The notes beneath the pieces were generated by a model, which made no database searches, was not told where the DNA came from, and was given only the letters and a program-made list of their open reading frames with translations. This document shows positions 11,644 to 23,667 of a stretch of 64,000 bases of DNA, piece after piece. A program made the translations under genes and the position numbers. Origin of the DNA: Gaiellales bacterium (GTDB lineage Bacteria; Actinomycetota; Thermoleophilia; Gaiellales; JAICJC01); contig DASUHM010000012.1 of assembly GCA_036273515.1 (NCBI GenBank), positions 1 to 64,000 on the forward strand, read 5' to 3'. Positions within the stretch are counted from its first letter, which is position 1. The number at the start of each line of letters is the position of its first letter.

Positions 11644-12611
11644 CAGGCTGTCCCCGCCGGGACTTCGAGGCGCACCTCGGTGCCCCCGCCGCGGCCGGGC
11701 TTGACCGCGAGGGCACCCCCCACCAGGAGGGCACGCTCCCGCATCCCGCGCAGACCCCCGTGGCCGTTCACGTCCGCATTCTCCGCGATCCCCCGTCCGT
11801 TGTCGGACACCCGCAGGACCACGCTTCCCACTCCCGGCTGCAGCGACACCTCCACGTCCGAGGCGTCCGCATGCCGGGCGACGTTCGTCAGGCTCTCCTG
11901 GGCGACGCGGTACACGGCCAGCTCGGACGCGTCCGAGAGCCGCGGAAGCCCGTCCGCGAACGATGGCCGCACGCTGACGCCGCTCTGGTCGGCGAACCGC
12001 CGTGAGAGCTCGGTGAGCGCGCTCACGAGGCCGAGCTGCTCGAGCATCTCGGGGCGCAGCTCGCGGGCGATCCGCCGCACTTCATCGAGCGCCCCACGCA
12101 CCGCCTGCTTCGTCTCCGCGATGTCCGCCTCCCGATCAGCGCCCCCATGTGCAAGCGAGTCGAGCTGGAGGAGCACACCCGTGAGCACCTGGCCTACCTC
12201 GTCATGCAGGCCGCGGGCGATCCGCAGCCGCTCCGCCTCCTGCGCCTCCAGCGCCCGCCGGCCAGTGTCGCGGCGTTCGGATTCGAGCCGCTCCAGCATC
12301 TGGTTGAAGGCTCCCACGAGCGCCATCGCCTCGACGCCGCCGTCCTCGGGCAGTCGCTGGCCCGGCCGCAGGAGGTCGACGGTGCGCATCCGCTCCACCA
12401 GCCGGTGGATGGGTCGAAGGGTGTGGCGCAGAAGCAGCAGGTTGGCGGCCAGCATCACGAGCAGGCCGACGGCCAGATCCAGCACCTCGACGAACGCAAT
12501 TGACGCATGGATCGTCACCGGCGTCAGCGCGAGGAGCACGGTGGCCAGCGCGAGCAGGGTCGCGTTGATGCCGAAGACCCGCCACAGCAGCGGGAGCCGT
12601 GAGAAGCGCAT
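11643..12611 (-). CDS. sensor histidine kinase (HAMP, HisKA_3, HATPase)
   Basis: 322 residues. Two membrane helices (about 10-30 and 38-60) leave almost no periplasmic loop, then a HAMP-like linker (RPIHRLVERMRTVDL), the dimerisation and phosphoacceptor helix EAERLRIARGLHDEVGQVLTG with the catalytic His, and an ATPase domain with SLTNVARHADAS, DNGRGI and GGLRGMRER. This is the NarX/DegS class that pairs with LuxR-type regulators. With no sizeable sensor domain it probably reads a membrane or intracellular cue. Transcribed first, overlapping the regulator gene. Confidence 0.92.
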   Translation of the reverse strand: MRFSRLPLLWRVFGINATLLALATVLLALTPVTIHASIAFVEVLDLAVGLLVMLAANLLLLRHTLRPIHRLVERMRTVDLLRPGQRLPEDGGVEAMALVGAFNQMLERLESERRDTGRRALEAQEAERLRIARGLHDEVGQVLTGVLLQLDSLAHGGADREADIAETKQAVRGALDEVRRIARELRPEMLEQLGLVSALTELSRRFADQSGVSVRPSFADGLPRLSDASELAVYRVAQESLTNVARHADASDVEVSLQPGVGSVVLRVSDNGRGIAENADVNGHGGLRGMRERALLVGGALAVKPGRGGGTEVRLEVPAGTA

Positions 12612-12632
12612 TGGCGGTCGCGTCCCCGAGTT

Positions 12633-13031
12633 CTAGCGCCCGCCGCCCGCCGCGGCCAGGGCCAGCCGATGGCCGCTGCGCGCGCGGGTCGACGGCGGTG
12701 CGACGAGCACCGGGACGTGCGTGGCAGCCTCCAGCTCGCGCGCCACTCCCGACCGCAGCAGGCGTCGGCCGAGCCCCGCGGCGCGTGATCCGAGCACGAT
12801 CAGGTCGGCCCCCTCCTCGTCGGCGACCTCTGCAAGCGCCTGGGCCGGGATGCCCTGGATCACTCGCACCTCGTCGGGCCCGGCCGCTCCGGCGGGGCGC
12901 GGCGTCCCATCGGGGGAGACGTGCACGAGCACGAGCCGAAGCCCGAGCCGCGCGGCGAGGGCGGCCGCCAGCTCGGACGCGTCGCGCGCGGCCGCCGTCC
13001 CGGTGACACCGCAGACGATGGTTCCGCCCAT
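12633..13031 (-). CDS. universal stress protein, single domain
   Basis: 132 residues; start ATG behind a near-ideal AAGGAGGTGTG. Opens TIVCGVTGTAAARDASELAAAL (the usual Asp of VDGS is replaced, reading VTGT), and the glycine loop reads LGSRAAGLGRRLLRSGVARELEAATHVPVLVAPP. Loss of the Asp and the altered loop suggest it may not bind ATP in the canonical way. It is divergent from another Usp gene at 13210, sharing a 178-base intergenic region with a palindrome. Confidence 0.82.
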   Translation of the reverse strand: MGGTIVCGVTGTAAARDASELAAALAARLGLRLVLVHVSPDGTPRPAGAAGPDEVRVIQGIPAQALAEVADEEGADLIVLGSRAAGLGRRLLRSGVARELEAATHVPVLVAPPSTRARSGHRLALAAAGGGR

Positions 13032-13102
13032 CACACCTCCTTCACTCTCGCGGGATGACACCTTCCCAGTGTTGCGCGCTCCGGCCGGCCGGGCGATGGG
13101 GT

Positions 13103-13123
13103 GCCGCCCCCAATTGGGGCGGC
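13103..13123. promoter_or_regulatory. near-perfect palindrome between divergent Usp genes
   Basis: GCCGCCCC-C-AATT-GGGGCGGC: two 8-bp arms around AATT with one extra C. It lies about 70 bases upstream of the minus-strand Usp gene start and about 90 upstream of the plus-strand one. Its symmetry and central position suggest an operator for a dimeric regulator, though a stem-loop role is equally possible. Confidence 0.4.
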
Positions 13124-13209
13124 GACCGCCCGCAGATGCACTCCTGCCCGGATGGCCGCCGGCGCCCTGTACGGCGAGCATCATCGTGACATCGAACGAA
13201 AGGGCAGCC

Positions 13210-13815
13210 ATGAGCACCGGAACGATCGTGTGCGCGGTCAACGAGACCACGGGGGCGGCGGAGGCGCTTCGCGCCGCGGCCCGGTTATGCGAGCGCCTCG
13301 ACATGCGGCTCGTCGCGGTGCACGTGGTCGAGGACGTACCGCTCGGACCGGCCGCCAGGCGCGAGGCCCGCGCGGGCGGGATGCGCCTGGTCGATCGGGT
13401 GCTGGCGGAGCATGGCGTCGCGCTCGCCGACCGCCGCGTCGCGATCGGCGACCCGTCGGAGCACATCGGCCGGATCGCGGGCGAGGAACGGGCCGAGCTG
13501 GTCGTCGTCGGCTCCAAGCCGAACGGCCGTCAACCCCGGCCGCCGCTCCGCAGCCGGCTCGCGACCGAGCTGCCGCAGGCAACGCCGGTCCCGGTCGTCG
13601 TCGTGCCGCCGCAGCTCGGGCGGCCCTACGCGACGGCGACGAGCAGCTTGTTCCCGGACGGATCGGTCAGCAACGGCCCTTCGGCCGTCTCCTCCGCGCC
13701 CGCCCCGGCGGCCGCGGCTCGGCCGAGCAGCCGCTCGCGCTCGTCGGCGGTCGGCAGGACGATGGTCCCGTGGCGCAGAGCCGCGAAGCCCTCGGGTGCC
13801 GGCGGCGCCCCCTGA
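13210..13815 (+). CDS. universal stress protein with read-through tail
   Basis: 201 residues. The Usp core (about 1-137) opens TIVCAVNETTGAAEALRAAARL and ends VVVGSKPNGRQPRPPLRSRLATELPQATPVPVVVVPPQ, the normal family terminus. Instead of stopping, the frame continues about 65 residues of low-complexity Ser/Ala/Arg sequence, running antisense through the 3' end of the glyoxalase gene by 190 bases. The tail has no recognisable domain, so a lost stop codon or a frameshift near 13620 is likely. The glycine loop is degenerate (GSKPNGRQPRPP). Confidence 0.72.
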   Translation: MSTGTIVCAVNETTGAAEALRAAARLCERLDMRLVAVHVVEDVPLGPAARREARAGGMRLVDRVLAEHGVALADRRVAIGDPSEHIGRIAGEERAELVVVGSKPNGRQPRPPLRSRLATELPQATPVPVVVVPPQLGRPYATATSSLFPDGSVSNGPSAVSSAPAPAAAARPSSRSRSSAVGRTMVPWRRAAKPSGAGGAP

Positions 13816-14558
13816 CTTTCCCAGGTGTTCGCGCCGATGTGATGGTGGTAGCCGCCCGCGCTCAGGAACGCCGCCTGACGGCCAAGCTGGGCCATCACGC
13901 CAAAGCCGAGGACGTCGCGATAGAAGCCGATGGTGTCCGCGATCTGCGCCACCTTGAGGTGCACGTGGCCCATCACCGTCCCCGCCGGCAGCCCTTCGAA
14001 CGGCTCCGACGCAGGGTCGGCCAGCTCGCCGAAGAGCGCATCGACGTCGAGCGGCAGAGTCGTCATACGGCTGGCGACGAGCCCTTCCCAGGCCTCACGT
14101 GGCCGGTCCTGGTAGATCTCGATCCCATGCCCGTCGGGGTCGGTGAGGTAGATGGCCTCGCTCACGAAATGGTCGGAAAGGCCCGTGAGCGCCACGCGGT
14201 CACGAGCGGCATGCGCGAGCCAGCGCGCGAGATCGACCCGTTCCGGCACCAACAGGGCGAAGTGGTAGAGGCCGGTGTATCCGGCCGCCGGGCGCGCACC
14301 CGGCTCCTCGATGAGCACCAGCAGCCGGCCGGCGGCGACCCCGAGCGTCGCACGGCCGTCCGCTCGTTCGAGCGTCTCCAGGCCCACCGCCGCGTCGTAG
14401 TACCCCACCGAGCGATCGAGATCCGCCACCGTCAGGTGGACGGGGCCGAGGGTCGTAGCCGGCGAGATCTCCGGCGGCCGCCCCGCGGCCCGCGCCTCGA
14501 CCTCCTCGGGGTCACGAGGAGCGGTCTTTGGGGACGGATTCAGGTCGTCACTGGACAC
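13626..14558 (-). CDS. catechol-2,3-dioxygenase-like glyoxalase/VOC protein (CatE type)
   Basis: 310 residues with two vicinal-oxygen-chelate modules. Module 1: LGPVHLTVADLDRSVGYYDAAVGL ... GLYHFALLVP ... AIYLTDPDGHGIEIYQDRP; module 2: MGHVHLKVAQIADTIGFYRDVLGF ... YHHHIGANTWES ... LLTDPSGNKLLVAVA. His and Glu metal ligands are placed as in extradiol dioxygenase relatives. I take the GTG at 14558, giving the family length; the frame stays open upstream into a GntR-regulator relic, so the longer frame is an accidental fusion. No strong ribosome-binding site is visible. Substrate is unknown. Confidence 0.82.
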   Translation of the reverse strand: MSSDDLNPSPKTAPRDPEEVEARAAGRPPEISPATTLGPVHLTVADLDRSVGYYDAAVGLETLERADGRATLGVAAGRLLVLIEEPGARPAAGYTGLYHFALLVPERVDLARWLAHAARDRVALTGLSDHFVSEAIYLTDPDGHGIEIYQDRPREAWEGLVASRMTTLPLDVDALFGELADPASEPFEGLPAGTVMGHVHLKVAQIADTIGFYRDVLGFGVMAQLGRQAAFLSAGGYHHHIGANTWESQGAPPAPEGFAALRHGTIVLPTADERERLLGRAAAAGAGAEETAEGPLLTDPSGNKLLVAVA

Positions 14559-14693
14559 GGTCAACGGCCGGCTCGGGGCGCTCGCCGAGGTACTCGACCC
14601 ATCGTCCAGGCTACCTCGTTTGCGCCCGGAGTGCAGGCGTCGTCGGCGAGGTTCTGGATCGGACGAAGTCCACCCGCGTGGTGGCGCTGAGGC

Positions 14694-14997
14694 GGCAGGC
14701 TCGAGTGTCAGCCGGGCCGTCCAGGCGTGGCGCATGTCGCCGAGGTCGAGCTGCGAGACGGTCGCGGCCTGGTTGGTGGAAAGCTCGACGAACCCCTCGA
14801 CGGCCAGCCGGCGCAGCGCCTCGCGAAGAGCGACATCCCGCATCGCACCCGCCTGCGACAAGGCGTGCTGGGCGAGGAGATGGGAGTGTCCCGCACCCCC
14901 GCTGGAGAAGCGCGTCGTAGACCCGGTCGAGAACGCTGCGGATGGGCAGACGGCCGTGATTCTCGGAGATCAGAGACTCTTGACCGTTGAATTTCAA
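14694..14997 (-). pseudogene. GntR/FadR-type regulator relic
   Basis: On the minus strand 14997 reads MKFNGQESLISENHGRLPIRSVLDRVYDALLQR, then, after a frame change in a G-rich run near 14900, LSQAGAMRDVALREALRRLAVEGFVEL (second half of a GntR winged helix) and LDLGDMRHAWTARLTLEPA (start of an FCD ligand domain), where similarity ends abruptly. A complete GntR/FCD regulator has about 220 residues, so most of the ligand domain is lost and the gene is dead. It is divergent from the APC permease at 15042, the usual position for its former regulator. Confidence 0.75.
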
Positions 14998-15041: not shown

Positions 15042-16565
15042 ATGTCTGAGGCTCCGTCACCGCCGGCGAAGGGAGGCGGGCTCGGTCATCGCCGGCTGGG
15101 GACGCCGGCCGCGGTCGCACAGGCGCTGGCGATCGGTCCGATGTTCTCGACGGCGATCGTGCTCAGCTTCGTGTCGAATCCGGTCAACGGCGCCGGCTGG
15201 AACACGCCGCTGGCGGTGCTGATCGCGGGGCTCGGCGTCCTCGCCATCGCCTATTCGATCTCGCTGTTCGCCAAGAAGTATCAGGGGGCGGGCGCGGTCT
15301 ATGAGTACCTGACCCGGGGCGCGCACCCGGCCGTCGGCATCTTCGCCGCGGGCATCTTCTTCACCGGCACCCTCTTCCTCGGCGGTGGCGGGATCTATCT
15401 CGGCCTCGGCATCCTCACGCAGAGCTTCTGGCAGGAGCACATCTCAACCTCGACCGTGCCCGCCTGGTGGCTCTTCCTGTTGCTGTTCCTGGCGCTGGTG
15501 CTGATCCTCAACTACGTCGGGGTGCGGATCGCGATCGGCGCCATGCTGACGTTCGCGGCCCTCTCATTCACACCGATGCTCATCCTGGCCGTCACGATCA
15601 TCGCCAAGGGCGGGGCGAACGGGAATACCCTCTCGGGCTTCAACCCCAGCACGACCTCGCTGCACGTCGTGTTCAACGGCGTCATGCTCGGCATCCTGCT
15701 GTTCGTCGGCTTCGAGGCGGCGGCCTCGATCGGCGAGGAGAGTCACGACCCCCATCGCTCGATCCCCCGCGCCCTACTGGGCACGGTCGGCGCGTCGGCC
15801 GTGTTCTTCGTGCTGATGGCCTATGCGATCTCGATCGGCCTGGGCAAGGCGGTCGTGGACAAGGGCGGCTGGGCATTCAACCCGGCGGCTCTGGATCAGG
15901 TCGCGACGCAGTACATCGGCTCCTGGTTCGCCACCATCATCGACCTGATCGTGATCCTCGACGCAACGGCGCTCGCGCTGGCCATCTGCGTCACGATCGG
16001 CCGCGGCTACTTCGCGCTCGGCCGTGACGGCCTGCTGCCGTCGTTCTTCGCCAGGACATCGCGGCACAACACCCCCTGGGTCGGGAACCTCGTGGTGGCG
16101 ATCGGCGGCCTCGGGCTGATGCTGATCGGCCTGTACAGCCACACCCTGGATCGCTTCGTCGCCCAGCAAGCGGCGCCCTCTCGCGAGTTTGCGGCGTTTC
16201 TCGTCGCGGCCACGGCGGGATCGTTCGCCGTCGAGGTTGTGTATCTGTTCCTGTCCGTCGCGGCGATCTGGTTGCTCGTTCGCGACAAGGCAGCGTGGTG
16301 GCAGTACCTCATAGTGCTGGTGGCGATCGCCACGCCGGTGCTGGGCTTCTACGGCGCCCTCAAGCCGGCGCCGCACAACACCACCAACCTGAACTGGCTG
16401 GCGTTGTACTGGGCGCTGGGATGCGTGGTACTTGCGGCCGTCTGGTTCGGCATTTGCCGCATACTGCGTCCGCAGAACGTCGCCAACGCTGCCGCGTACG
16501 CGGCGGCTCACCACGGCGTCGCGCCGCTGGACGAATCTCTCGACTACGAGGCGCTGCCAGAGTGA
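15042..16565 (+). CDS. APC family amino acid/amine permease
   Basis: 507 residues with about 12 to 14 membrane helices. The N-terminal region (HRRLGTPAAVAQALAIGPMFSTAIVLSFV) and GFEAAASIGEESHDPHRSIPRAL, the conserved loop after helix 6, identify the amino acid-polyamine-organocation superfamily. Substrate cannot be read from sequence. AAGGAGGGCGTC precedes the ATG. It is followed by a terminator-like hairpin and then by a flavin monooxygenase-cytochrome b5 gene in the same direction; uptake of an aromatic or amine substrate for that enzyme is a reasonable inference. Confidence 0.88.
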   Translation: MSEAPSPPAKGGGLGHRRLGTPAAVAQALAIGPMFSTAIVLSFVSNPVNGAGWNTPLAVLIAGLGVLAIAYSISLFAKKYQGAGAVYEYLTRGAHPAVGIFAAGIFFTGTLFLGGGGIYLGLGILTQSFWQEHISTSTVPAWWLFLLLFLALVLILNYVGVRIAIGAMLTFAALSFTPMLILAVTIIAKGGANGNTLSGFNPSTTSLHVVFNGVMLGILLFVGFEAAASIGEESHDPHRSIPRALLGTVGASAVFFVLMAYAISIGLGKAVVDKGGWAFNPAALDQVATQYIGSWFATIIDLIVILDATALALAICVTIGRGYFALGRDGLLPSFFARTSRHNTPWVGNLVVAIGGLGLMLIGLYSHTLDRFVAQQAAPSREFAAFLVAATAGSFAVEVVYLFLSVAAIWLLVRDKAAWWQYLIVLVAIATPVLGFYGALKPAPHNTTNLNWLALYWALGCVVLAAVWFGICRILRPQNVANAAAYAAAHHGVAPLDESLDYEALPE

Positions 16566-16571
16566 CGTTTC

Positions 16572-16600
16572 GAAGGGGCCGGCCCTCGGTCGGCCCCTTC
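16572..16600. terminator. hairpin after the permease gene
   Basis: GAAGGGGCCG with CGGCCCCTTC, 10-bp perfect stem and a 9-base loop, starting 7 bases after the permease stop and 36 before the next start. No long T-run follows, as is common in high-GC actinobacteria. It may terminate, or attenuate read-through into, the monooxygenase gene. Confidence 0.6.
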
Positions 16601-16635
16601 GTCGCCCACCGATTGAGAGCAACTGGAGGGACTTC

Positions 16636-18360
16636 ATGCGGGCACTTATCGCAGGTGGAGGCATGGCCGGGCTGATGACCGCTCTGGCGCTGCGGGAGTC
16701 GGGCGTGTTCACGACGATCGACGTCTTCGAGCAGACGCGGACGCCGAGCACCGCGGGAGCGGGGCTGAACATCCCCCCGAACGGCGCACGGCTGGCGCGG
16801 TCGCTGGGCGTCGACCTCGACGGCGGGGACCCCAAGGGCCCGGCCGGGGCGGTCGACGGCGGCAGGGCGGCGATCCTCACCGAGACGCGGATGGTCTGGC
16901 CGGACGGCTCCATCACGCGGAAGCCGCTCGACCACAACACGTCCGCCAACGATAACGCCGGCTTCCACCACATGCACCGCCTCGACCTGCTGATGTGCCT
17001 CCACCAGCGGGTCCTCGAGTTTGCGCCGGAGACGGGCGCCAACAGCCCGATCCAGGTGCACATGGCCAAGCGCCTGGAGGCCGTCAGCCAGGACGAGGAG
17101 TCCGTGACCGTGACGTTCTCCGACGGCACGACGGAGACCGGAGACCTGCTGATCGGTGCCGACGGCGTCGACTCCCAGGTGCTGGATGCGGTCTGGCCGG
17201 GCGTGTCGGCCAAGCGCTGGACCGAGGTCGTCGTCTACCGCGGTCTGGTCCCGAGGGACAAGGTCGCCGCGGCGCGCAAGCCCGACGGCAGCCCACTCGA
17301 CTTCAACCCCATCGAAACGATGTCGATGGACACCCGCGAGACCCCAACGGCGCAGCATCTCACGTACTGGGTCCGCGGCGGCGAGCTGCTCAACGTGTGG
17401 CTCGGCTACTACGAGCCCAACGCCGAGGAGTTCGAGCGCCGAGAGAGCGACTGGTTCCCCGCCGACCGCGATGAGATGGTCGGCAACATGAGCAAGGCGT
17501 TCGAGGGCGACCCCCGTCACGACGACGTCGTCGCACTCACGAGCCTGATGGAGAACCCGACGAAGTGGGGGCTCTACGACCGGGACGCGCTCGAGAACTG
17601 GACGGAGGGTCGCGTGGGCCTGGTCGGTGACGCCGCTCACCCGATGCTGCCGACCTTCGGCCAGGGTGCCGCGCAGGCCTTCGAGGACGCCGCCGCACTG
17701 GGCAAGTGCTTCGAGCTCCACGGCACGGACATCTACCGCGCGCTGTTGCACTACGAGCGCGTGCGCTACTACCGCGCGACGCGCTTCCAGTTCGCGTCGA
17801 AGTTCCTCTTCAAGCACCTCGAGCCGGAGGACTCACCTCAGCGCCGGAAGATCCTCGCTGCGGTCAACGAGCGGGACTACCCCGTCTTCGATCACACGGA
17901 GCGTGCGGGCAGCGACGACTCGTGGATCTACGCGTTCGACGCGCGCGCGATCGGCGACAAGCTGCCGATCAGGAAGCTCGGGCCGTGGCACTTCCGCTCT
18001 CGGAATGAGGCGCTGAAAACCGCCCGCAGGGAGGTCGCCACGAGCCTCTGGAAGCCGGCGAAGCCATGGGCCGGCGACCGGCCCGTCACGCGCGAGGAGC
18101 TCGCACAGCACGCGACGTTCGACGACTGCTGGGTGGTCGTCCGCGGCAAGGTCTACGACTTCACCGAGTGGAAGGACCACCACCCGGGCGGGCCGTTCGT
18201 CGCGCGCATGTACGGCGGAAAAGACGCCACGGCGGAGTTCGGCGAGTACCACAGCCGGCTCGCCGAGCAGCACATGCAGTACTTCTGCGTCGGGCCGGTC
18301 GTCGGAGCCCCCGCCGAGCGCGCCGGCGACGCGTCGGAGGTCGAGCCGTCCAGGACTTGA
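16636..18360 (+). CDS. FAD-dependent monooxygenase fused to a C-terminal cytochrome b5 domain
   Basis: 574 residues. Residues 1-400 are a salicylate-hydroxylase-type FAD monooxygenase: ALIAGGGMAGLMTALAL (FAD Rossmann), LLIGADGVDSQVLDAV (DG motif) and VGLVGDAAHPMLPTFGQGA (GD motif). After a linker of ~85 residues, residues ~485-560 form a cytochrome b5 domain: VTREELAQHATFDDCWVVVRGKVYDFTEW, the heme motif DHHPGGPFV, and a second His in GEYHSRLAEQH. Fused, heme could deliver or withdraw electrons from the flavin. Cytoplasmic; no signal peptide. GGAGGG at 16625 supports the ATG. Substrate unknown; the permease upstream is the likely partner. Confidence 0.88.
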   Translation: MRALIAGGGMAGLMTALALRESGVFTTIDVFEQTRTPSTAGAGLNIPPNGARLARSLGVDLDGGDPKGPAGAVDGGRAAILTETRMVWPDGSITRKPLDHNTSANDNAGFHHMHRLDLLMCLHQRVLEFAPETGANSPIQVHMAKRLEAVSQDEESVTVTFSDGTTETGDLLIGADGVDSQVLDAVWPGVSAKRWTEVVVYRGLVPRDKVAAARKPDGSPLDFNPIETMSMDTRETPTAQHLTYWVRGGELLNVWLGYYEPNAEEFERRESDWFPADRDEMVGNMSKAFEGDPRHDDVVALTSLMENPTKWGLYDRDALENWTEGRVGLVGDAAHPMLPTFGQGAAQAFEDAAALGKCFELHGTDIYRALLHYERVRYYRATRFQFASKFLFKHLEPEDSPQRRKILAAVNERDYPVFDHTERAGSDDSWIYAFDARAIGDKLPIRKLGPWHFRSRNEALKTARREVATSLWKPAKPWAGDRPVTREELAQHATFDDCWVVVRGKVYDFTEWKDHHPGGPFVARMYGGKDATAEFGEYHSRLAEQHMQYFCVGPVVGAPAERAGDASEVEPSRT

Positions 18361-22064: not shown

Positions 22065-23186
22065 TCAGGGCGCGTAGCGCAGGATCGCGGCGACCGATCC
22101 GCTGCCGGGCACGTCGTCGCGGCGCACCGCGAGCACGCCGCCGCCGGTCAGCCACACGCGCCGGGCGATCTCGTCGACGACGCCGTAGTTGGCCGCGTCG
22201 CCGCCATCGTCGAGGGTGATCGCGCCGGTCTCATCGTCCACGTAGCCGGGGACGACCTCGTCGATGTCGACGAGGACGGTCTCGACCAGGCCGTGGGTGG
22301 CGGCGCGCGCGACGTCGGCGATGTCGGCGGAGGTGCGCCGCTGGGAGGCGCGCAGCGCGTAGGTCTCCTTCACCGAATCGAGCTCCGCGGCGTAGATCTC
22401 GTCGAGCAGCCGCCGTGCCCGCTGGACCAGCTCGGCCTCGGAGGCCGTGTCGGGGTTCCCGGGCAGGCTCTCCGCGACCAGGTGCGGGTAGCTGTTCACC
22501 GACCGGAAGATCGCATCCATCGGCTCGGCGGCGGCCAGGATCAGCGGCAGGTCGAACCCGCCCAGGAGCGGCCGCAGCGCCTGGTCGATCTGGCGGGCGT
22601 ACTGGCGCATGCGGGTCTTCTGGCCCTCGGTGCCCTGGAGCCGGCCGCTCGGCGCCCGGTCCTTGATCGACGACTTGCCGACCGCGCTCGCGACGTCCTT
22701 CGGCATATCGGGCACGCGTATCTCCGCGGGCTCGAGCTCCGGGGCGATCTCGAGCAGGCGGACGCCGTTCTGGGAGAGCGCGAGCACGAACGCGGTGTGC
22801 GGGAACGTGAGCGTGCGAAGGAGCGGCTTGAGGTGAAAGCGATCGGAGACCTCGACCATCGCGACGAGCTGGTTCGGGAGCCGGAAGGTCGTGCCCGCCG
22901 TCGGCGTCACGAACACCGCCAGGCTGCGCGCCTGGTAGCGCCAGAAGTCGTCGTCGTCGACGAGATCGGCCAGCTCCTCCTCGATCGCCGCCACGTCGGC
23001 GCGCGCGGCCCCCGCCTCGCGGAGCTGCCTGGCGGCCTCTGCGGCGAGGTTCTTCAGCTCGATCCGCTCCGCGTCGCCGCGCGACTCCGGGCTCGTCGGG
23101 AGGTAGATCGAGACGCTCGCCGGCTCGCGAGCGGCCAGCAGCCGCTCGACCTGAGCGCGGGTCGGGACGTCGGTGGGCAGGATCAT
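22065..23186 (-). CDS. baeRF-family protein (bacterial eRF1-like)
   Basis: 373 residues. RAQVERLLAAREPASVSIYLPTSPESRGDAERIELKNLAAEA at the N-terminus, FWRYQARSLAVFVTPTAGTTFRLPN, VEVSDRFHLKPLLRTLTFPHTAFVLALSQNGVRLLEI and a C-terminal VDEIARRVWLTGGGVLAVRRDDVPGSGSVAAILRY match the bacterial archaeo-eukaryotic release factor families, which carry eRF1/Pelota-like domains and are proposed to act in ribosome rescue or RNA modification. None has a confirmed function in bacteria. ATG at 23186 taken as the start, giving the usual length. Confidence 0.75.
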   Translation of the reverse strand: MILPTDVPTRAQVERLLAAREPASVSIYLPTSPESRGDAERIELKNLAAEAARQLREAGAARADVAAIEEELADLVDDDDFWRYQARSLAVFVTPTAGTTFRLPNQLVAMVEVSDRFHLKPLLRTLTFPHTAFVLALSQNGVRLLEIAPELEPAEIRVPDMPKDVASAVGKSSIKDRAPSGRLQGTEGQKTRMRQYARQIDQALRPLLGGFDLPLILAAAEPMDAIFRSVNSYPHLVAESLPGNPDTASEAELVQRARRLLDEIYAAELDSVKETYALRASQRRTSADIADVARAATHGLVETVLVDIDEVVPGYVDDETGAITLDDGGDAANYGVVDEIARRVWLTGGGVLAVRRDDVPGSGSVAAILRYAP

Positions 23187-23226
23187 CGATCGGTTACCCG
23201 CAGGCAACGTTAGCCGATCCGCGCCG

Positions 23227-23667
23227 TCAGGGCAGGCTCTGCTCCCAGCGCGAGAGCTCGTAGGCGACGCCGGGCCGGCCGCCGACCGCCAGGATCGACG
23301 TGCCGTCGACGGTCGCCCGGGCGCTGCGGATGAGCGCCGGGTCGCGTACGAACACGAGCGTGCCGGCGGGCGCATCGACATCCTGGCCGTCCACCGTGAA
23401 GACGGCGTGCCCGCTCACGACGGCGAACAGCTCCTCGTGGCCGTTGGTGCCGTTCTCCTCGTCGTCGGCCTCGTGATGCGGCTCCACCATCTCGTCGCCC
23501 GCGCCCCCGGTGATGCCGTTCACCCCGAAGGAGCGGATGTCGAAGTGGCGGCGGACGAGGTGGAAGTCGCCGTCGGTCGCGTCGGGATAGTCAGGGTCGA
23601 TGTCCGTCACCACGACCACGTCGTCCAGGCGCACGGCGGCAAACGGCGCTTTGGCGGGATCGGTCAC
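23227..23667 (-). CDS. cupin domain protein
   Basis: 146 residues from GTG. Metal-binding cupin motif 1 appears as PHHEADDEENGTNGHEELFAVVSG and motif 2 as VDAPAGTLVFVRDPALIRSA, where the motif 2 His is replaced by Arg. The core fits a small cupin (RmlC-like), possibly sensing or isomerising a small molecule. Divergent from the adjacent glyoxalase-like gene, 108 bases away; no catalytic assignment is justified. Confidence 0.75.
   Translation of the reverse strand: MTDPAKAPFAAVRLDDVVVVTDIDPDYPDATDGDFHLVRRHFDIRSFGVNGITGGAGDEMVEPHHEADDEENGTNGHEELFAVVSGHAVFTVDGQDVDAPAGTLVFVRDPALIRSARATVDGTSILAVGGRPGVAYELSRWEQSLP

Follow-up and report, generated by a model that had tools for sequence, protein, structure and literature searches.

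A gene in a 64,000-nucleotide stretch of a Gaiellales genome (the window, which here means the whole stretch analysed) encodes a class A-like flavoprotein monooxygenase that continues, in the same reading frame, into a cytochrome b5 domain. It belongs to a fusion family that is rare and patchy in its distribution, yet conserved. On the best reading, a partner reductase or ferredoxin would supply all or part of the electrons for the FAD by way of the fused heme, as ferredoxin does for COQ6. A preliminary description of this DNA had proposed an unusual electron flow; a family-wide exchange of arginine for leucine, invariant heme ligands and redox genes at some loci speak for it, with the direction of flow a matter of prediction.

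Gene and domain organisation

The frame is uninterrupted from the ATG at 16636 to the stop codon at 18358-18360. The gene and its parts are arranged as follows.

16636..18360, + strand: fused FAD monooxygenase–cytochrome b5 gene; a single open reading frame of 574 codons (574 amino acids), supported by Pfam and by homologues of the same architecture
16625..16630, + strand: ribosome-binding sequence GGAGGG, 5 nt 5' of the ATG, read in the sequence
16636..17955, + strand: class A flavoprotein monooxygenase core, residues 1-440 (approximate boundary), with GGGMAG, GADG and GDAAHP motifs; supported by AlphaFold and Foldseek
17155..17184, + strand: DG motif GADGVDSQVL, residues 174-183; the Leu183 codon (17182-17184) replaces the usual Arg
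17956..18087, + strand: inter-domain linker, residues 441-484, with lower conservation and partly low model confidence (pLDDT <50 at 448-460)
18088..18300, + strand: cytochrome b5 domain, residues 485-555 (PF00173, E 1.1e-22; profile match to 2ibj)
18181..18183, + strand: codon of the predicted heme ligand His516 (HPGG), invariant in 17 of 17 fused homologues
18250..18252, + strand: codon of the predicted heme ligand His539 (EYHS), likewise invariant in 17/17

The N-terminal part matches FAD_binding_3 in Pfam (E 3.6e-20), and the FAD motifs lie at residues 7-12 (GGGMAG), 174-177 (GADG) and 331-336 (GDAAHP). Both the GxGxxG and the GD motif that mark class A enzymes are thus present, at positions shared with unfused relatives. 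Reading frame, Pfam and motifs together confirm the preliminary description on this point, namely an FAD monooxygenase with intact FAD motifs fused to a complete b5 domain with both histidines. The proviso that the two parts might prove to be separate proteins has fallen away, as the full-length fusion is found in independently assembled genomes, including those of other phyla. Since these carry the identical architecture, the fusion joint is not an assembly error, and an artefact or a pair of genes is ruled out as an explanation.

Enzyme class and fold

The defining trick of class A hydroxylases is the substrate-stimulated transfer of hydride from NAD(P)H. The overall fold of the present core is of this class: the top Foldseek matches are class A hydroxylases, with E-values down to 2.1e-31, TM scores (normalised to the target) of 0.71-0.86 and 22-28% identity in the alignments. 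They include NicC, 3-hydroxybenzoate 6-hydroxylase, salicylate hydroxylase, decarboxylative vanillate 1-hydroxylase and VibMO1, which share the fold and the FAD motifs with the fusion but, besides their low identity to its core, have no b5 domain. The underlying AlphaFold model, built from a 58-row alignment, has a mean pLDDT of 79.4; residues 1-380 mostly reach 80-98, and the b5 domain ranges from about 52 to 86 per ten-residue block. By sequence, the best PDB match of the core is 6-hydroxynicotinate 3-monooxygenase NicC (1.8e-29).

The preliminary label 'salicylate-hydroxylase-type' holds at the level of the superfamily and no further; the salicylate 1-monooxygenase model (TIGR03219) scores 127.8, far under its curated cut-off of 446.35. 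The best equivalog, 3-hydroxybenzoate 6-monooxygenase (NF006021), likewise stays below its cut-off (159.3 against 459). Because no NCBIfam equivalog among the matches listed reaches its cut-off, the substrate cannot be named by family membership. The core is best called class A-like, or a class A variant: it has the fold, but lacks the arginine of the DG motif.

Loss of the DG-motif arginine

The DG motif (DGxxSxxR) retains D176, G177 and S180, while its terminal arginine has become Leu183. In the alignment, residue 183 is leucine in 12/12 fused proteins and arginine in 37 of the 38 unfused class A homologues; a second alignment, of 16 fused proteins, also has Leu183 throughout. NicC, in its own alignment with the core, has the arginine too. 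At seven positions all fused proteins share a residue that at least 70% of the 38 unfused ones lack, and residue 183 is the sharpest of these.

The equivalent residue of p-hydroxybenzoate hydroxylase (PHBH), Arg166, has been implicated in NADPH binding by mutagenesis (PMC3546652). The leucine of the fused proteins at this position fits, and would be expected from, a switch of direct reductant away from NAD(P)H, but is not proof of it; on account of the missing arginine, NAD(P)H is predicted to reduce the FAD directly only weakly or not at all. COQ6 and squalene epoxidase retain the DG arginine despite having protein electron donors, so partner-fed enzymes need not lack it. Taken by itself, the exchange suggests at most a weaker recognition of NAD(P)H.

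The fused proteins share nearly all other core positions that are conserved among their unfused relatives. This would suit a normal class A hydroxylase that depends on NAD(P)H, with its b5 domain off the main electron path and serving to adjust coupling, to scavenge stray single electrons or to sense the redox or heme state; so would the lack, at most loci and in the window too, of a dedicated redox gene next to the fusion. Such an enzyme is nevertheless rather unlikely, given that the family-wide change from arginine to leucine coincides with the fusion, and that invariant heme ligands and purifying selection extend across two phyla.

The loss of the arginine as a family trait, together with the fusion, appears to be new: its separate parts are known, but the combination is undescribed in the open-access text searched. 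No description of the fusion was found in that text, and a word search of two reviews of these monooxygenases (PMC3546652, PMC4981433) did not find the word 'cytochrome'.

The cytochrome b5 domain

The C-terminal domain scores 80.3 bits against PF00173 (gathering cut-off 23.7; E 1.1e-22), which identifies it as a cytochrome b5 domain. At that threshold this gene is the sole match in its own genome, and no second PF00173 domain was found there; a standalone b5 partner is dismissed on these grounds. Both the HPGG motif and the second histidine are kept in all 17 aligned fused proteins. The b5 family profile aligns over its full length with housefly cytochrome b5 (2ibj; E 1.9e-19), with one residue fewer before the second histidine, and its closest PDB matches also include the b5 domain of flavocytochrome b2 (5e-18 to 9e-17).

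Selection has acted on both domains, with pN far below pS in nearly all pairs. Where dN/dS could be computed, it is 0.09-0.35 for the monooxygenase core and 0.05-0.46 for the b5 domain, and the b5 value is the lower one in every pair except the closest. This exception, the window gene and L050, combines a b5 value of 0.46 with few changes; more distant pairs give 0.05-0.24. The heme domain therefore looks functional, with heme binding predicted from these sequence features.

The Pfam family name spans heme- and steroid-binding domains, which leaves some room for a b5-like domain that binds a small molecule (a steroid, or a ligand as in MAPR-like proteins) or docks a protein, with no redox heme at all. 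The presence of both axial histidines in every full-length homologue and the full-length profile match to electron-transfer b5 proteins make this very improbable.

Two further observations concern b5 domains elsewhere. Another genome of the phylum (L092:1495-2367, - strand) encodes a multi-pass membrane-like segment followed by a b5 domain, whose first heme motif is HPAG and not HPGG. Scans of viral contigs for diverse b5 sequences found none.

Neighbouring genes and redox context

Redox proteins are encoded beside several members of the family. Directly downstream of the fusion in Bradyrhizobium (L060) come genes for an HcaD-like ferredoxin reductase (11759-13072) and a 2Fe-2S ferredoxin (13041-13370); the surroundings also contain maleylacetate-reductase-like Fe-ADHs, a flavin reductase and a monooxygenase of the HpaB type. 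On the Streptomyces plasmid (L090), an intradiol dioxygenase resembling chlorocatechol dioxygenase, a dienelactone hydrolase, a Fer2/NAD reductase (16329-17486) and a muconate cycloisomerase are encoded divergently from the fusion; a 3-oxoadipyl-CoA-type thiolase and maleylacetate-reductase-like Fe-ADHs follow farther along, and the catabolic neighbours in this cluster comprise more than one intradiol dioxygenase. A motif scan of 41.6 kb of this locus found no P450 or Rieske-oxygenase motif. Two gammaproteobacterial loci each encode a Rieske ferredoxin of 105 residues; the two share 70% identity, and the gene lies 0.4 kb upstream of the fusion in L061 and 4.4 kb downstream in L056. In a nocardioid (L057), a P450 directly follows the fusion gene, accompanied by a reductase that is 43% identical to the Streptomyces one; the P450 may be the actual partner of this reductase.

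Redox genes occur within 5.5 kb at 5/17 fused loci and 1/20 unfused controls (hypergeometric one-sided p about 0.06), a comparison in which close relatives count separately, several fused loci are truncated by contig ends and the controls all belong to a single family of Alphaproteobacteria; the enrichment is marginal and suggestive only. Redox neighbours are absent from the window, from the other Thermoleophilia loci and from an alphaproteobacterial group (L052-L055/L058). That they differ in type among loci, and are missing from many, counts against feeding by a partner.

The P450 of the nocardioid locus also bears on the possibility that electrons run the other way. The FAD would then be reduced by NAD(P)H or by the substrate, and the b5 heme would drain the electrons off to an outside acceptor or oxygenase, such as a neighbouring P450; the protein would act as a flavocytochrome dehydrogenase or reductase and not as a monooxygenase. 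Flavocytochrome b2 (lactate dehydrogenase), whose b5 domain is among the closest PDB matches, offers a parallel, with its electron route from flavin via b5 to cytochrome c. Like the fusion, it is a flavin enzyme covalently joined to b5, and single-electron exchange with the flavin is proposed for the fusion as well. Unlike the fusion, it is a dehydrogenase that holds FMN in a TIM-barrel, has its b5 domain at the N-terminus and lets electrons exit via the heme; a protein with a FAD_binding_3 core and a C-terminal b5 domain does not belong to this type. The hydroxylase motifs are conserved and intact, the arginine tied to NAD(P)H recognition is gone, the nocardioid P450 has its own reductase adjoining, and an evident acceptor is missing at most loci. 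Reverse flow is accordingly an unlikely explanation.

Upstream of the fusion in the window lies a transporter gene.

15042..16565, + strand: APC-family amino-acid-type permease (PF13520, E 9.8e-32), 70 bp upstream of the fusion and on the same strand

The permease stays a neighbour in L001 (95% identity) and, in divergent orientation, in L050 (77%), an arrangement that speaks for a functional link to the fusion within the Thermoleophilia lineage. The link suggested at the outset thus stands for three Thermoleophilia loci (the window, L001 and L050) and does not extend to the others, where no permease homologue adjoins the fusion gene; a universal partnership is ruled out. Import of the substrate is a possible role for the permease.

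Two other genes of the window may be recorded here. Divergent from the permease, positions 13629-14861 (- strand) encode a two-domain VOC protein (glyoxalase/extradiol dioxygenase superfamily), possibly a ring-cleavage enzyme. Positions 22068-23381 (- strand) encode a protein of the bacterial archaeo-eukaryotic release factor (baeRF) family (PF18855, E 2e-57).

Proposed mechanism and related systems

The favoured path leads from a partner to the b5 heme, on to the FAD and from there to O2 and the substrate. The protein would be an aromatic hydroxylase of the class A (single-component) fold in which the C-terminal b5 domain serves as the electron entry port to the FAD. Depending on the lineage, a 2Fe-2S ferredoxin, a Rieske ferredoxin or a PDR-type NADH reductase would reduce the b5 heme, which would pass two electrons, one at a time, to the FAD; direct reduction by NAD(P)H would be weak or lost. 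The reduced FAD would bind O2, and the resulting C4a-hydroperoxide would hydroxylate a phenolic compound or an aromatic acid, whose product would enter a ring-cleavage pathway. This path is given about an even chance, with heme binding, electron direction, loss of NAD(P)H use and substrate class all predicted. More tentative is the broader proposal, somewhat short of an even chance, of a heme-gated flavin hydroxylase family that no longer uses NAD(P)H and receives single electrons through a covalent b5 domain, from ferredoxins or reductases that differ among bacteria.

COQ6 is the nearest functional precedent. NAD(P)H does not support activity of this flavin-dependent monooxygenase, which functions together with FDXR/FDX2 and, as proposed for the fusion, draws its electrons from a ferredoxin couple (PMC7615680). 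It differs from the fusion in that its iron-sulphur donor is a separate protein, its chain has no heme domain and its role is in ubiquinone biosynthesis. QhpG is a flavoprotein monooxygenase whose FAD is reduced by neither NADH nor NADPH and whose donor is given as unknown; unlike the fusion it modifies a peptide in cofactor biogenesis, and it is not reported to have a b5 domain in the text searched (PMC7876137).

If the proposed path is correct, the family shows a route by which class A enzymes can be rewired to single-electron protein donors. It would also offer a natural template for aromatic hydroxylation that does without NAD(P)H or is driven by an electrode, and a soluble bacterial model for donor switching of the COQ6 type.

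Distribution and history of the fusion

Fused full-length homologues, with 59-94% identity, occur in Actinomycetota, in Alpha- and Gammaproteobacteria and on one Streptomyces plasmid of 1.7 Mb, whose member is 64% identical. A scan of ~85,000 species genomes with the protein, using exact peptide patterns that reach close relatives only, gave 8 loci. Six of these have both domains, at 65-94% identity, and come from one MAG each of Thermoleophilia, Actinomycetes, Nocardioides (where the contig end cuts the gene), Gammaproteobacteria and a probably mislabelled 'Klebsiella', and from Bradyrhizobium altum; the Bradyrhizobium gene lies at L006:6001-7668. Searches of individual genomes and the Streptomyces plasmid added further members. 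Among sampled genomes, the fusion is present in 2/397 of the window's phylum, 1/385 of the class of G458 and 1/350 of the class of G456. The concern that such a fusion might be common and already explained is not borne out by these counts, nor by the open-access text searched.

Within the window's order, the fusion is found in G002, G003 and G005 and is missing from G001 and G004; this patchy presence suggests horizontal transfer. The 16 fused proteins included in a tree of the monooxygenase core, whose deep joins are uncertain, form one group (100% SH-aLRT) on a long stem, apart from 41 unfused ones. Because the fused proteins group together with such support, a single joining event would be the simplest history of the fusion.

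Individual loci add some detail. The gammaproteobacterial genome G456 has two copies of the fusion, on C7 (L061) and C55 (L051), which are 76% identical and have different catabolic surroundings. The record titled Klebsiella pneumoniae MAG (G457, L005) carries a fused gene that is 68% identical to that of the window; its label is probably wrong, as the genome groups in the order of an unrelated gammaproteobacterial MAG. Finally, L008 (G460 C47:1162-1596, - strand) encodes residues of about 412-557, that is, linker and b5 domain, and no monooxygenase core; its upstream frames contain stops, its second heme motif reads YHG, and it is probably a decayed remnant of the fusion family.
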